Shown in pieces: positions 6,130 to 37,967 of a DNA stretch of 42,494 bases (positions are counted from its first letter, which is position 1; the number at the start of each line of letters is the position of its first letter). The stretch comes from Lentilactobacillus rapi DSM 19907 = JCM 15042. GTDB lineage: Bacteria; Bacillota; Bacilli; Lactobacillales; Lactobacillaceae. The DNA lies in assembly GCF_001436255.1 (NCBI RefSeq), contig NZ_AZEI01000018.1, positions 1 to 42,494 on the forward strand, written 5' to 3'. Under the pieces are notes generated by a model. The model was not told where the DNA came from. It searched no databases and saw only the letters and a program-made list of their open reading frames with translations. Made by a program: the position numbers and the translations under genes.

Positions 6130-6250
6130 TAGGACAGCTCCTCCAGGCAGCAACCGGCACGTAAGCACCTCCAAGAAAAATTCCAGGACCGGGAATTCCC
6201 CTCGGAGGCGACTTACGTTCCGGTTACTAACCGCCTGGATCCGCTCACTA
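6130..6250 (+). repeat. 121-bp hairpin element, copy A
   Basis: Exactly 121 bp, aligning without gaps to copies B-E. It folds as one nested hairpin: ends TAG/CTA and AGC/GCT, then TCCAGGC/GCCTGGA, AACCGG/CCGGTT, CGTAAG/CTTACG, CCTCC/GGAGG and AATTCC/GGAATT around a 7-base loop. All helices are fully paired in this copy. There is no T run, so it is not an ordinary terminator. Confidence 0.9.
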
Positions 6251-6254
6251 TTCT

Positions 6255-6375
6255 TAGGACAGCTCCTCCAGGCAGCAACCGGCACGTAAGCACCTCAACC
6301 CAAAATTCCCAAACCCGGAATTTCTGTTCGAGGAGACCTACACTCCGATCTCTAACCGCTTGGATCCGCTCACTT
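6255..6375 (+). repeat. 121-bp hairpin element, copy B (chimeric)
   Basis: Four bases after copy A. The first 42 bases are identical to copy A, but the second half resembles copy C. As a result the second helix is broken here (AACC against GATC), while its 3' arm GATCTC would pair perfectly with the 5' arm GAGATC of copy C. It ends 24 nt before the MFS start codon. Confidence 0.9.
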
Positions 6376-6399
6376 TTGTCACTCAGGGAGGATTAACCG

Positions 6400-7683
6400 A
6401 TGGAAATTAGTGATCATCAATCGAATATTCAAATCATTAAAGACTTTTCCAGCAATCTCATCAGTGCGTTTTCAGCGGACATGTTTTCGCTGGCGATGGG
6501 GTTGATGTTACTTGCCGAAACCGGGATGTCACTGAGCTTTGGATTATCGATGATCATCATGCCGCTGGTGAGCTTGTTGGGATTAATGCCAATCGGCAAT
6601 CTGGTTGATCGGCACCGCCACAAACCATTACTGGTGATCAGCATCCTGATTCGCTTAATTGCCTTGGTCGGGTACGCCCTCACGATCGGTTATTTTCACG
6701 GCGTGGGTAAAATTATCCCAACGGTGTTATTCCTGATTATTAATTACATTGTTCAAAGTGTGATGACAACTGGTTATAATGCGGCTATTCATGAATTGGT
6801 GAATGAGAAGCATATTCAAAAATTAAGCTCGCTCACCCAATCAGCGACGTCATTTGCCAATATCTTTTCACCGATTGTTGCGACCTCTTTTTACGCGTTA
6901 TTAGGATTCAGAACATTTATTGCCTTTTCGATTGCGGCTAATGCCTTGACCTTAGTGATCCTTCTTTCAATGAAGTTTCATTATCAACCCGTTGCTCAAA
7001 TTCACAGTGACAATGAGTCGTCTCAGTGGACACTGTTTAAAGACGGGTTACACTATATCAGTTCCAATCGGTTTTTAAGGTACGTAATGAGCGGCGGCGT
7101 CTTTTTAAATCTGATGATTTCCGCGTTAAATATTGGGATGCCGTTCATGGTGGTGCATCAACTGCACGCTGGTGATCTATCCCTTGGAATCTTAAATTCA
7201 CTCTATGCTTCCGGTGTGTTGATCGGGAATCTCGTCATTGCGATGTTGCCGCCAATTAAACGGCTGACCAGGATTTTGACGTCAGCATTCATGCTGGTTG
7301 GCGTGACCTTATTGATGTTTGGCTTTGTGGTCATTCCAGGATTGGGTGTTAAGACGCTCCGAGTGGTAGGGGGACTGATTCTATGTATCAGTGGGATTTC
7401 GTTGGCATTTCTAAATACGCCAATGGGGATCTATATTCAAAAGACAGTTCCTACTGACTTATTGGGGCGGGTTTCATCAACCGTCATGTCGATTAATATG
7501 GCATCAACCCCAATTGGCATTATTATCTTCACGGTCATTTTTCAAGTTTGGCCGAGTTGGCTTAACTTCACAGCCAGTGGGGCGATCTTAATCGGATTCA
7601 CCTTGGTTCTAAGTCGGCTAATGTATCGTGAAGAACGTCGTGAGCCAATGGGTGCGAATCAGCCGATTGAGGAGAACCGTTAA
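6400..7683 (+). CDS. MFS transporter
   Basis: A 427-residue integral membrane protein with about 12 hydrophobic segments and the major-facilitator loop pattern after helix 2 (NLVDRHRHKPLL, about 67-78). It resembles drug or macrolide efflux-type members (MFS_3-like) and probably exports a small molecule by proton antiport; the substrate cannot be inferred. The ATG is preceded by GGGAGG at 8 nt. It is divergent from the Rgg regulator, which may control it, and its 5' leader carries two copies of the 121-bp hairpin element. No gene follows on this strand before def (convergent). Confidence 0.88.
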   Translation: MEISDHQSNIQIIKDFSSNLISAFSADMFSLAMGLMLLAETGMSLSFGLSMIIMPLVSLLGLMPIGNLVDRHRHKPLLVISILIRLIALVGYALTIGYFHGVGKIIPTVLFLIINYIVQSVMTTGYNAAIHELVNEKHIQKLSSLTQSATSFANIFSPIVATSFYALLGFRTFIAFSIAANALTLVILLSMKFHYQPVAQIHSDNESSQWTLFKDGLHYISSNRFLRYVMSGGVFLNLMISALNIGMPFMVVHQLHAGDLSLGILNSLYASGVLIGNLVIAMLPPIKRLTRILTSAFMLVGVTLLMFGFVVIPGLGVKTLRVVGGLILCISGISLAFLNTPMGIYIQKTVPTDLLGRVSSTVMSINMASTPIGIIIFTVIFQVWPSWLNFTASGAILIGFTLVLSRLMYREERREPMGANQPIEENR

Positions 7684-13603: not shown

Positions 13604-13642
13604 GAGACTGAGACATAGGCGTTTTGATCCCAGAATTTAACG
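13604..13642 (+). repeat. Dispersed hairpin element, copy 3
   Basis: It shares GACATAGGCGTTTTGATCCC and the following CAGAATTTAA with the inverted copies at 77-115 and 2332-2373. In each case it lies just downstream of a gene and in the same sense. Here the stem-loop terminator at 13643-13686 follows directly. Confidence 0.6.
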
Positions 13643-13686
13643 AAAATGACCAATTATTCCTGATTTTGGAATAGTTGGTCATTTTT
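13643..13686 (+). terminator. pdh operon terminator
   Basis: AAAATGACCAATTATTCC pairs with GGAATAGTTGGTCATTTT around a 7-base loop. The pairing extends outward through TTTAAC / GTTAAA. A T run lies inside the descending arm. Confidence 0.8.
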
Positions 13687-13897
13687 GTTAAATGGCAGGG
13701 ATCAGCCGTTTGGTGCAGCTTTTATCTAGGTGGCTATGGTGATCTATGTGAATGATCATCGATTGAAAATTAATATATGTCCAACCTTTTCGTTAAATAG
13801 CCGGGATCAGCCGTTTGGCGCAGCTTTTATCCAAGTGACTACAGCGATCCAAACGAATAATGACTGATTGAAAAATTAATATATGTCCCAACCTTTT
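13687..13897 (+). repeat. Tandem direct repeat of about 104 bp, two copies
   Basis: Copy 1 (13687-13790) and copy 2 (13792-13897) share long blocks: GGGATCAGCCGTTTGG, GCAGCTTTTATC, and ATTAATATATGTCC followed by CAACCTTTT. They differ by scattered substitutions and a few single-base indels, which indicates an old duplication. No reading frame is preserved across both. Confidence 0.75.
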
Positions 13898-34853: not shown

Positions 34854-34882
34854 TTGCAATTAATGAATATCGGTGTTAACCT
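34854..34882 (+). promoter_or_regulatory. Candidate argGH promoter
   Basis: TTGCAA (34854-34859) is spaced 17 bp from TAACCT (34877-34882). If used, the transcript would start just before copy C and carry all three hairpin elements in a leader of about 400 nt. ArgR-like half-sites lie close by. Confidence 0.4.
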
Positions 34883-34899
34883 CATTACTATTAACTTTA

Positions 34900-35020
34900 T
34901 AGGACGGCTCCTCCAGGCAGAGATCTGCGCATAAGCACCTCAAACAAAAATTCCCAAAACCGGAATTTCTGTTCGAGGAGCCTTACACTCCGATCCCTAA
35001 CCGCCTGGATTCGCTCACTA
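34900..35020 (+). repeat. 121-bp hairpin element, copy C
   Basis: It aligns gap-free with the other four copies. First helix TCCAGGC/GCCTGGA. The second helix is GATC/GATC, a different paired sequence from copies A and D. The third helix is partly mispaired. Confidence 0.9.
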
Positions 35021-35023
35021 TAT

Positions 35024-35144
35024 TAGGACAGCTCCTCCAAGCAGAAGTCTGCGCGTAAGCACCTCGAAGAAAAATTCCAAAATCGGGAATTTCCCTCCAA
35101 GGAGCCTTACGCTCCGACTTCTAATCGCTTGGATCCGCTCACTA
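35024..35144 (+). repeat. 121-bp hairpin element, copy D
   Basis: Separated from copy C by TAT. The first helix is TCCAAGC/GCTTGGA and the second is GAAGTC/GACTTC; both arms differ from copy A yet pairing is kept. Third helix GCGTAAG/CTTACGC. Confidence 0.9.
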
Positions 35145-35147
35145 TAT

Positions 35148-35268
35148 TAGGACAGCTGCGCAAAGCAGAAGTCTGCATGTAATCACCACGGAGAAAAATT
35201 TCAGAACCAGGAATTTCCCTCCGTGGAGCCTTACACTCCGACTTCTAACCGCTTTGCTCCGCTCACTA
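35148..35268 (+). repeat. 121-bp hairpin element, copy E
   Basis: Separated from copy D by TAT. The most divergent copy, but still 121 bp and well paired: GCAAAGC/GCTTTGC, GAAGTC/GACTTC, TGTAA/TTACA, and an 8-bp helix CCACGGAG/CTCCGTGG. It ends 20 nt before the argG start codon. Confidence 0.9.
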
Positions 35269-35288: not shown

Positions 35289-36584
35289 ATGACAGAAAAT
35301 AATAAAGTAATCCTAGCTTACTCCGGTGGCTTGGACACATCCGTTGCAATTGCTTGGCTGAAGGACAAAGGGTATGACGTTGTTGCTTGCTGTATCAATG
35401 TTGGTGAAGGCAAGGACCTTAATTTTATTAAGCAAAAGGCTTTAAACGTTGGTGCCGTCAAAGCATACGTAATTGACGCCTTAGATGAATTTGCCGACAA
35501 CTATGCAGCCGTTGCTTTAAAAGCTAACGCAATGTACGAAGGATCATATCCATTGATCTCTGCTTTGTCACGCCCCCTTATTTCTAAAACGTTAGTTGAA
35601 GTTGCCCATCAAGAGCACGCAGTTGCCGTTGCTCATGGCTGTACTGGAAAAGGAAATGATCAGGTTCGTTTCGAAGTTGCGATTCATGGGCTTGATCCCC
35701 AACTTGAAGTTCTCAGCCCAGTTCGTGACTGGCACTGGTCTCGTGAACAAGAAATTGAATACGCTAAGGACCACAACATTCCGATTCCAATCGACCTTGA
35801 CTCACCATATTCAATCGATGCCAACATCTGGGGCCGAGCTAACGAAGCCGGTATCTTGGAAGATCCATGGCAGAGTGCGCCAGAAGATGCCTTTGCAATC
35901 ACTAACCCAATTGAAAACACCCCGGATACACCAACGGAAGTGCAAATTACTTTTGAAAAGGGAATTCCAGTTGAATTGGACGGTAAAAAGATGAAGTTCG
36001 CTGACATCATTCAGGATTTGAACAAGATTGCCGGTGAAAATGGCGTTGGCCGAATCGACCACATTGAAAACCGTTTGGTTGGGATTAAATCTCGTGAGGT
36101 ATATGAAGCCCCTGCAGCAACTGTATTGCTCAAAGCCCACAAAGAATTGGAAGACTTAACGTTTGAGCGTGACTTAGCTCATTTCAAGCCAACTGTTGAG
36201 AAGCAACTCAGCGAACTCGTCTATAATGCCCTTTGGTTCTCACCATTGATGGATTCAATTCAGGCCTTTATCGACAAGTCACAAGAAGTCGTGAACGGCA
36301 TCATCAAATTGCAATTATTCAAAGGCAACGTCATGGTACTTGGCCGTAAATCAGATTCGTCACTCTATGACAAGGATTTGGCAACTTACACGTCTTCTGA
36401 TTCATTCGATCAAGAAGCTGCTAAAGGATTCATCAAGCTCTGGGGACTACCAACTCAGGTTTATCAACAAGTTCAACTCAAAAACAAACAAGCACAGTTT
36501 GTTCAAGCCGTTACCAAATCACAATTAAAAGACAAGGTGACGGTTCACGATCAATATTCCACACATACGGGAGCTAAAAAATAG
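35289..36584 (+). CDS. argG: Argininosuccinate synthase
   Basis: A 431-residue enzyme that joins citrulline and aspartate with ATP, the next-to-last step of arginine synthesis. The PP-loop AYSGGLDTS is at 10-18; further motifs include [17 protein letters not shown] and FSPLMDSIQ. It is some 20-30 residues longer than usual at the C-terminus (after [10 protein letters not shown]). The ATG at 35289 has AAGGGG 8 nt upstream; an in-frame ATG 66 nt earlier lies inside repeat copy E and is rejected. argH begins immediately after the stop. Confidence 0.95.
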
Positions 36585-37967
36585 ATGAGTACTAAGAAAC
36601 TTTGGGGCGGCCGGTTTCAAGCCCAGGCATCCAAATGGGTGGACGAGTTTGGTGCCTCGATTTCCTTTGATCAGTTGATGGCTGAAGAGGATATCGAAGG
36701 CTCACTTGCCCATGTGAAGATGTTGGGTCATACGAAAATTTTGAATGAGTCAGATGTTGACCAGATTGTTCAAGGACTGGAAGACCTGCGAGATGAGTTG
36801 CATGCTGGCAAATTACACTTCACGGTTGAAAATGAAGATATTCATATGAATATTGAGGCACTGTTGACTGAGAAGATCGGTCCAGTCGCTGGTAAGCTGC
36901 ACACTGCCCGTTCACGAAACGACCAGGTTGCCACTGATTTCCATTTATACCTCAAGAAGCGGCTGCCAAAAGTGATTGACGAAATCACAACTTTACAGCA
37001 AACGCTGGTTGAGATGGCTGAAAAAAATGTTGAGACCATCATGCCAGGATATACGCATTTGCAACATGCCCAACCAATTTCTTATGGTCATTACTTAATG
37101 GCTTATTACCAAATGCTGAAACGGGATAAGGAACGGTTTGAATTCAATATGAAGCATACTGATATCTTACCGCTTGGAGCTGCCGCGCTTGCCGGAACCA
37201 CTTTCCCAATTGACCGGGAATACACGGCTCAGGAACTCGGCTTTGATGCTGTCTATGCCAACTCGCTGGACGCCGTTTCTGATCGGGACTTCGCGCTGGA
37301 ATTCTTAAGCAACAGTTCCATTTTGATGCTGCATTTATCTCGTTTTTGCGAAGAAATCAGCATGTGGGTCAGCCATGAGTTTAAGTATCTTGAACTCAGT
37401 GATGCCTACACCACTGGCAGTTCGATTATGCCTCAAAAGAAGAATCCGGATATGGCCGAGTTGATCCGAGGTAAAACGGGTCGGGTATATGGCCACTTGA
37501 TGCAATTACTAGCCACGATGAAATCCTTGCCGCTTGCTTACAACAAGGATTTGCAGGAAGATAAAGAAGGCGTCTTTGATACCGTCAAAACCTTGCTGCC
37601 AGCGTTGAAAGTTTTCAATGGGATGTTGAAGACTGCAAAACCAAACGTTGAACGGATGAAACAAGCCACTGAAAATGATTTTTCCAATGCCACCGAGCTA
37701 GCCGATTATTTGGCAGCTAAGGGCGTTCCGTTTCGGCAGGCACACGGGATTGTGGGTCAGTTGGTCCTTAAGGGATTGCAAACGCATCAAAATCTTCAGG
37801 ACATGTCTTTAGCAGACTTGCAAGCAGCCTCCCCTAAAATCGAAGCAGACGTTTATCACGATCTCAAGTCAGAGGTGGCGGTTGAACGGCGGCATTCACT
37901 GGGCGGCACTGGCTTTGACCAGGTTAAGCTGCAGATTGAAAATGCGAAAAAAGAATTGAATAATTAG
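36585..37967 (+). CDS. argH: Argininosuccinate lyase
   Basis: A 460-residue enzyme of the fumarase/aspartase superfamily that splits argininosuccinate into arginine and fumarate. The superfamily signature [12 protein letters not shown] lies near 280-291; [13 protein letters not shown] and the [14 protein letters not shown] helix complete the active site. Length is normal. The ATG directly follows the argG stop (TAGATG), so the pair is co-transcribed and translationally coupled. A terminator follows. Confidence 0.96.

Follow-up and report, generated by a model that had tools for sequence, protein, structure and literature searches.

Three tandem copies of a short element stand directly before argG in the window, the whole 42,494-nt stretch of Lentilactobacillus rapi DNA analysed here, and a sequence-only reading had proposed that they form a new structured leader RNA. 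The question that this locus raises is whether such an element belongs to the control of argG or to something larger. Because the genome that carries the window (the source genome) holds some 200 or more copies, mostly at gene edges, we regard the family as a widespread repeat and not as a special control switch for argG.

The arrays of the window and the extent of the family

A 119-nt unit (AGGACAGCT...CGCTCACT) is repeated in tandem at two places in the window, with 5 to 6 nt of linker between neighbours. Upstream of argG there are three units (34901-35267), and upstream of an MFS gene two (6131-6374). Both arrays were called by Tandem Repeats Finder, and beyond these five copies no further sense-strand copy was found in the window at E<=1e-3. 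As the sequence-only reading had stated, the five align without gaps (0 gaps over 123 columns). The features are as follows.

6131..6249, + strand: second array, unit 1 (fold z -5.82)
6250..6255, + strand: linker ATTCTT of the second array (from sequence)
6256..6374, + strand: second array, unit 2 (fold z -1.91, broken pairs), its CACT end 25 nt 5' of the MFS gene
6385..6391, + strand: Shine-Dalgarno AGGGAGG of the MFS transporter gene (from sequence)
6400..7683, + strand: MFS transporter gene 3' of the second array (TIGR00900, 123.6 bits, below the curated cut-off of 319.6)
34854..34889, + strand: stretch upstream of argG (TTGCAATTAATGAATATCGGTGTTAACC...), conserved in the alignment with and without the array
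34901..35019, + strand: argG array, unit 1 (AGGACGGCT...CGCTCACT; fold z -4.73)
35020..35024, + strand: linker ATATT between argG units 1 and 2 (from sequence)
35025..35143, + strand: argG array, unit 2 (fold z -5.91); the near relative G249 has a different unit type here
35144..35148, + strand: linker ATATT between argG units 2 and 3 (from sequence)
35149..35267, + strand: argG array, unit 3 (fold z -6.04), its CACT end 21 nt 5' of the argG start codon
35276..35281, + strand: Shine-Dalgarno AAGGGG of argG (from sequence)
35289..36584, + strand: argG, argininosuccinate synthase (NF001770, 612 bits)
36585..37967, + strand: argH, directly after argG (TIGR00838, 635 bits)

We take the conserved stretch at 34854..34889 to be the likely argG promoter together with an ArgR box (the "ARG box"); the promoter scan made no call there. 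The arms of the unit at 6256-6374 look like those of two different unit types, as in a chimera. A reading of the arrays as terminators was rejected, the consensus scan having called none inside either of them. The window gave no match in Rfam 15 at the gathering cut-off, T-box and riboswitch families included, in line with the sequence-only reading, which had recognised neither a T-box nor any common riboswitch; at E<=10 the argG array returned microRNA families alone, far below their cut-offs. Separately, the window carries a second dispersed repeat of ca. 105 bp at 13682-13897, where two tandem copies follow a strong hairpin at about 13636-13692. This repeat has 41 matches in the source genome, mostly to one half of it, and no convincing match in Rfam.

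A DNA search of the source genome found the element at 59 places, a covariance model built from 71 units gave at least 150 matches, and an HMM gave 219 non-overlapping matches at E<=1e-3 (195 above 50 bits) across 70 regions around matches plus the window. The 204 units of at least 30 bits are grouped in 95 arrays: 33 are single units, and 35, 13, 9, 4 and 1 arrays consist of two, three, four, five and six units, respectively. Each array consists of one kind of unit, ca. 119 nt with a T-rich linker of mostly 5 to 6 nt, repeated head to tail. There is also a subfamily with other ends (L143, L162, L164, L174, L195, L208 and further loci), which begins approximately with GTGCTCC, often after TACATAGCNGAA, and finishes approximately with GCACTCT; in the source genome it lies mostly at stop codons, and it resembles the units of other genera.

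Searched with the covariance model, the Lactobacillaceae proved to hold matches in 87 of 301 genomes and 20 of 40 genera, and Lentilactobacillus in 18 of 24 genomes. Among 295 genomes of Lactobacillales, 19 had matches, seven of them outside the Lactobacillaceae (six weak and one strong). Loci from other Lactobacillales families (L331-L339) have model matches, in one genome with a tandem spacing of 125, and may suggest a wider superfamily. Among the matches listed, the nearest named records are Lentilactobacillus, and two arrays have flanks that share 95-97% identity with L. dabitei. When the HMM was run on 80 loci (L031-L110), 30 gave no match, including records from other phyla, which we treated as chance, and the Pediococcus loci, which the covariance model alone had found and the HMM missed.

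Of 72,556 plasmid records, 68 contain a match; three of these with a copper operon were inspected, and in each a unit stands after copY. These units, on plasmids of Listeria, Secundilactobacillus and Pediococcus (L137, L138 and L140), are nearly identical; in the latter two the unit precedes a copper ATPase gene, and in the Listeria record it is followed by an IS6 transposase gene. A phage origin was considered and rejected, with 0 matches in phage records. Viral contigs gave 12 pattern matches, which look like chance by their number and length.

Hairpin, covariation and the preferred strand

Each window copy had been read as one nested hairpin. Four of the five indeed fold far better than their shuffled versions (z -4.7 to -6.0; 0 of 200 shuffles as good), whereas the unit at 6256-6374 is unremarkable (z -1.9; 7 of 200). 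The nine pairs listed as changed on both sides were all recovered, one column lower in our numbering, and among the five window copies double changes occur at 12 of 42 predicted pairs.

The covariation is real, as had been claimed. In an alignment of 71 units from the source genome, the top-strand structure had 96.3% of its cells paired (79.9% in shuffles), double changes at 24 of 34 pairs (19.0), 442 double-changed cells (136) and a score of 0.475 (0.174), and each of these four values was reached by 0 of 500 shuffles. Further pair types were at chance (53 vs 52.7 in shuffles; 287/500). The 442 double-changed cells compare with 16 that carry one-sided changes and 89 that are unpaired, and pairing falls below 50% if the partner is shifted by one column. 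Read from the bottom strand (AGTGAGCG...AGCTGTCCT), the element is one long hairpin with conserved internal loops. Over 344 units dereplicated to 87, this structure was 95.8% paired (maximum of 200 shuffles, 82.1%), with 31 of 39 pairs double-changed (maximum 26) and 555 double-changed cells (maximum 192). To judge from these alignments, the covariation is strong evidence for a maintained hairpin, and not by itself for selection on RNA, because the shuffles keep the relatedness of the units and because unit exchange or arm copying can spread such changes.

Top strands fold well too. The reverse complement is the more stable in 168 of 168 source-genome units (-59.0 vs -46.5 kcal/mol with RNA parameters; 168 of 168 also with DNA parameters), the fold and covariation counts having excluded units below 80-85 bits, cut off or containing N, which kept 168 of 219. 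Five Lentilactobacillus groups gave the same result after dereplication, the bottom strand being better in 87 of 87 units, and so did Pediococcus together with six further genomes, one of them of the same genus (62 of 62 units). For the fold counts in other genera, 67 of 100 matches were used, opposite-strand shadows, repeats of overlapping loci and partial matches being dropped; the 62 exclude five plasmid units, three of which fold better as the bottom strand. Outside the Lactobacillaceae the preference fades (7 of 12 units). At pairs that are Watson-Crick in most units, the bottom strand has 137 G.U against 45 A.C. Part of the energy gap comes from conserved G.U columns, few in number, that the units inherited in common, so that the wobble count at variable pairs is the better evidence.

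The preference is the same on either side of a gene, with the bottom strand better in 101 of 101 units before starts and 42 of 42 at stops. Because it thus ignores the strand of the host gene, we infer that its source is the propagation of the element itself, as RNA or single-stranded DNA, and not the host mRNA.

Position at gene edges and turnover at single sites

Arrays were oriented with CACT as the 3' end, and genes were called by a simple ORF script. In 49 of the 95 source-genome arrays, the CACT end lies 13-27 nt before a co-directional start codon with the Shine-Dalgarno region between, and in 25 of the 95 it falls between -5 and +11 nt relative to the stop codon of an opposite-strand gene. 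A stricter recount, from which arrays less than 400 bases from a locus end or with units below 60 bits were excluded, gave 49 start-side and 23 stop-side arrays of 90 (72/90), the other 18 obeying neither rule; random placement in the gaps of the same genome gave means of 7.6 and 4.3 and maxima of 20 and 11, respectively, in 2000 runs. The corresponding figures were 23 and 16 of 48 arrays in L. kisonensis (39/48), 24 and 3 of 29 in L. fungorum (27/29), 5 and 3 of 12 in L. dabitei, and 3 and 0 of 3 in other Lentilactobacillus. For L. kisonensis and L. fungorum together, the 47 start-side and 19 stop-side arrays compare with random means of 9.8 and 6.1 (maxima 18 and 14). Polarity is rarely reversed before start codons, where the 5' end faces the start in 0 of 90 source-genome arrays, 2 of 48 in L. 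kisonensis, 1 of 29 in L. fungorum and 0 of 12 in L. dabitei; at stop codons the 5' end is found in 7 of 90, 2 of 48, 5 of 29 and 2 of 12, in the same order.

No common functional class was seen among the 12 start-side genes looked at, which are argG, the MFS gene, gap, pyrB, leuA, trpD, thiM, genes for an amino-acid permease, a Dps-like and a PotA-like protein, and two without a family at 1e-20. Of 20 loci scanned, four have a regulatory leader (a lysine, TPP or cobalamin riboswitch or a T-box) on the upstream side of the start-side array, which there stands between that leader and the Shine-Dalgarno sequence. Two other loci drew our attention. In L176 (2513-2849), Rfam matches to RatA (an antitoxin RNA) and rli28 (a Listeria small RNA) lie between two arrays on opposite strands. 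In L146, an array of four units (one in L. dabitei) stands directly before a promoter-like stretch with AACATATGTTCG, which we take to be SOS-box-like.

Single sites differ among relatives in their number of units. At the argG site, three units are present in both the source genome and G249; G304 carries one scored unit and one decayed one (the first, recognised by eye), the units of G303 are decayed and were seen by eye in the alignment alone, and the other 15 loci examined have no match. The gap site carries four units in the source genome, two in G249, one plus remnants in G304 and three in G303, with no match nearby at the other 20 loci examined. For rplI the numbers are five, four and, in G304, two plus remnants, with no match at the other 19 loci examined; here the element provides a TGA stop codon that replaces TAA or TAG, and the length of the open frame is unchanged. 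In three further genomes (G109, G082 and G133; L276, L278 and L272), another type of long hairpin directly follows the rplI stop codon without an array, as if the rplI tail attracted different hairpins.

Units are also replaced within orthologous arrays. In G249 and L. dabitei, which are possibly one species, 9 of 13 units are closer to a unit elsewhere in the source genome than to any unit of the orthologous array there, and 4 of 13 stayed orthologous; over 600 nt of argG coding DNA, the source genome and G249 are 94.7% identical. Array sizes at orthologous sites were 4 vs 1, 4 vs 2 and 3 vs 1 units, and equal at other sites. Linkers within one array are alike (0 of 2000 permutations as high in the source genome and 7 of 2000 in the named set), and so are the flanks on the two outer sides of an array (6 and 1 of 2000; mean score 1.51 vs 1.07 in shuffled pairs), which may be a weak sign of target duplication. 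The first linker resembles the outer flanks in the source genome (0 and 1 of 2000), and in the named set this is not significant (268 and 124 of 2000). Site by site, a target duplication is suggestive at gap, where the flank GGTTT of the source genome and G249 resembles linkers, and is not seen at argG. As for the terminal inverted repeats expected of a MITE, the outermost bases of the unit pair only in part.

Competing explanations and known parallels

We consider it probable, though well short of assured, that the family is a non-autonomous, BOX-like repeat of the Lactobacillaceae with a cassette-like turnover, selected as a bottom-strand hairpin in the form of single-stranded DNA or RNA. 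At a new site, a unit would be inserted together with a short T-rich duplication of the target, and this duplication would then serve as the linker. The object of selection would be the bottom-strand hairpin, which propagation would need, since the strand preference is independent of the direction of the host gene. Arrays would grow, shrink and exchange units through recombination between dispersed copies, with the consequence that both arms change together; besides selection, paired changes would also be expected from arm-to-arm copying or from the swapping of unit types. Hosts would keep arrays mainly at transcript edges, where an array leaves reading frames, promoters and regulatory leaders intact. 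The start/stop lock may reflect either where units insert or what selection retains. A bolder version, which we entertain tentatively and with more doubt than belief, is that these are a new class of cassette-like mobile hairpin, in which propagation needs one folded strand. The insertion machinery would recognise translation starts and stops, or the nucleic-acid structure at them, with the result that units arrive in a fixed polarity a few bases from the Shine-Dalgarno sequence or stop codon, and whole hairpins would be exchanged between sites.

The main rival is that the element is useful to its host at transcript ends, as an RNase block, an RNase III site or an insulator of the ribosome-binding site. 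The tight Shine-Dalgarno/stop lock in three species speaks for it, as do the recognisable units kept at argG, gap and rplI in both the source genome and G249. However, if the arrays are cotranscribed with their genes, the start-side mRNA would contain the weaker strand and the stop-side mRNA the stronger, yet the preference is the same at both. Moreover, the argG array has decayed in G303 despite at least 149 units elsewhere in that genome, and 20 of 40 genera have no match. We therefore think a host function unlikely as the main explanation, although it is the alternative to be taken most seriously.

It is improbable that the units are neutral palindromes whose covariation comes purely from arm-to-arm correction by template switching and from gene conversion. 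Such a process would fit the great excess of double-changed over one-sided cells on the top strand (442 against 16) and the exchange of units between loci. Against it, the internal loops have stayed unpaired, where correction would have altered them, and are more conserved than the paired columns (0.88 vs 0.78), and G.U is threefold more frequent than A.C on one strand (137 vs 45), an excess that strand-symmetric copying does not predict.

What, then, of a cis-regulatory leader RNA, in which the folded top strand would sense something and control argG and the MFS gene? Part of the sequence-only reading stands: the element is folded and covarying, its top strands fold well, and for about half of the arrays it lies in a 5' untranslated region (49 of 90 directly before a Shine-Dalgarno sequence). 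That reading had also allowed for a folded single strand of DNA in place of RNA, and either may apply. The tie to argG is not supported. The 95 arrays lie beside genes that are unrelated among those looked at, 23 of 90 are at a stop codon in antisense orientation, and four follow riboswitches or a T-box. The best-folding strand is, in all 168 units, antisense to such a leader, and at argG itself the array is without a match in some relatives (e.g., G217, G278, G291 and G308) and decayed in others. We regard this explanation as very improbable. Least credible of all is that a Y1 transposase resident in the genome moves the units, as in REP/IS200-IS605-like elements, or that they are retroelements mobilised by a resident reverse transcriptase. 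REPs, too, are strand-specific hairpins of high copy number near stop codons. However, neither family (PF01797 in 7, PF00078 in 8 of the 24 genomes of the genus) tracks copy number; the source genome has one Y1 transposase, and G303, G304 and G217 are unit-rich without either family (at least 149 units in G303 and G304).

In one lactobacillus genome, dozens of genes carry a folded element in their leader or tail, some of them after riboswitches, and anyone annotating leaders or measuring expression in these species would need to take it into account. A polar start/stop lock combined with a strand fold that is blind to host direction presents a testable puzzle on how non-autonomous repeats move and settle, for which the spread through the Lactobacillaceae supplies natural replicates in the form of filled, empty and decayed sites.

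No Lactobacillaceae repeat family of this kind was found in the open-licence literature searched, a scope outside which most subscription journals lie, and the family is apparently undescribed so far. Integron attC sites are hairpin recombination sites that are folded from the bottom strand and occur in arrays; unlike these, the units have no genes between them, and the attC core motif is absent from their ends. In Enterococcus faecalis, the EFAR elements are palindromic small repeats in which sequence types are combined variably.

BOX elements of Streptococcus pneumoniae are small, noncoding interspersed repeats with predicted folding and a strain-variable number of tandem modules; their transcription lengthens operon transcripts at the 5' and 3' ends, one copy is situated between T-box motifs, and they are the source of the stop codon for 36 CDSs without clear truncation (PMC3049150). 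The present family is like BOX, as described there, in its dispersed copies with folding potential, its variable array length and, at rplI, its supply of a stop codon (PMC3049150). It differs in that the whole hairpin is the repeated module, whereas BOX, here compared by description, is built from distinct A, B and C modules (PMC3049150), and in that units are exchanged between loci. The part of PMC3049150 drawn on here gives a gradual decay of gene distance and mentions neither a Shine-Dalgarno lock nor a single polarity, while most arrays here are locked to within a few bases.

ERIC, a 127-bp repeat of E. coli, Y. pestis and V. cholerae, is similar in being a single long stem-loop of nearly equal length and many copies, although the account of it in PMC2267715, so far as drawn on, has neither tandem arrays nor a start/stop lock; this is a comparison by description and not by sequence. 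Efa-1 of Enterococcus faecalis is likewise a small palindromic repeat of the Lactobacillales, but, again compared by description and not by sequence, it is 163 bp long and a pair of adjacent stem-loops (PMC2267715). Lac-1 of L. johnsonii, 231 nt and marked G in the same source, differs in size from the ca. 119-nt unit (PMC2267715). By this comparison, ERIC and Efa-1 are the more distant parallels, and pneumococcal BOX the closest kind.
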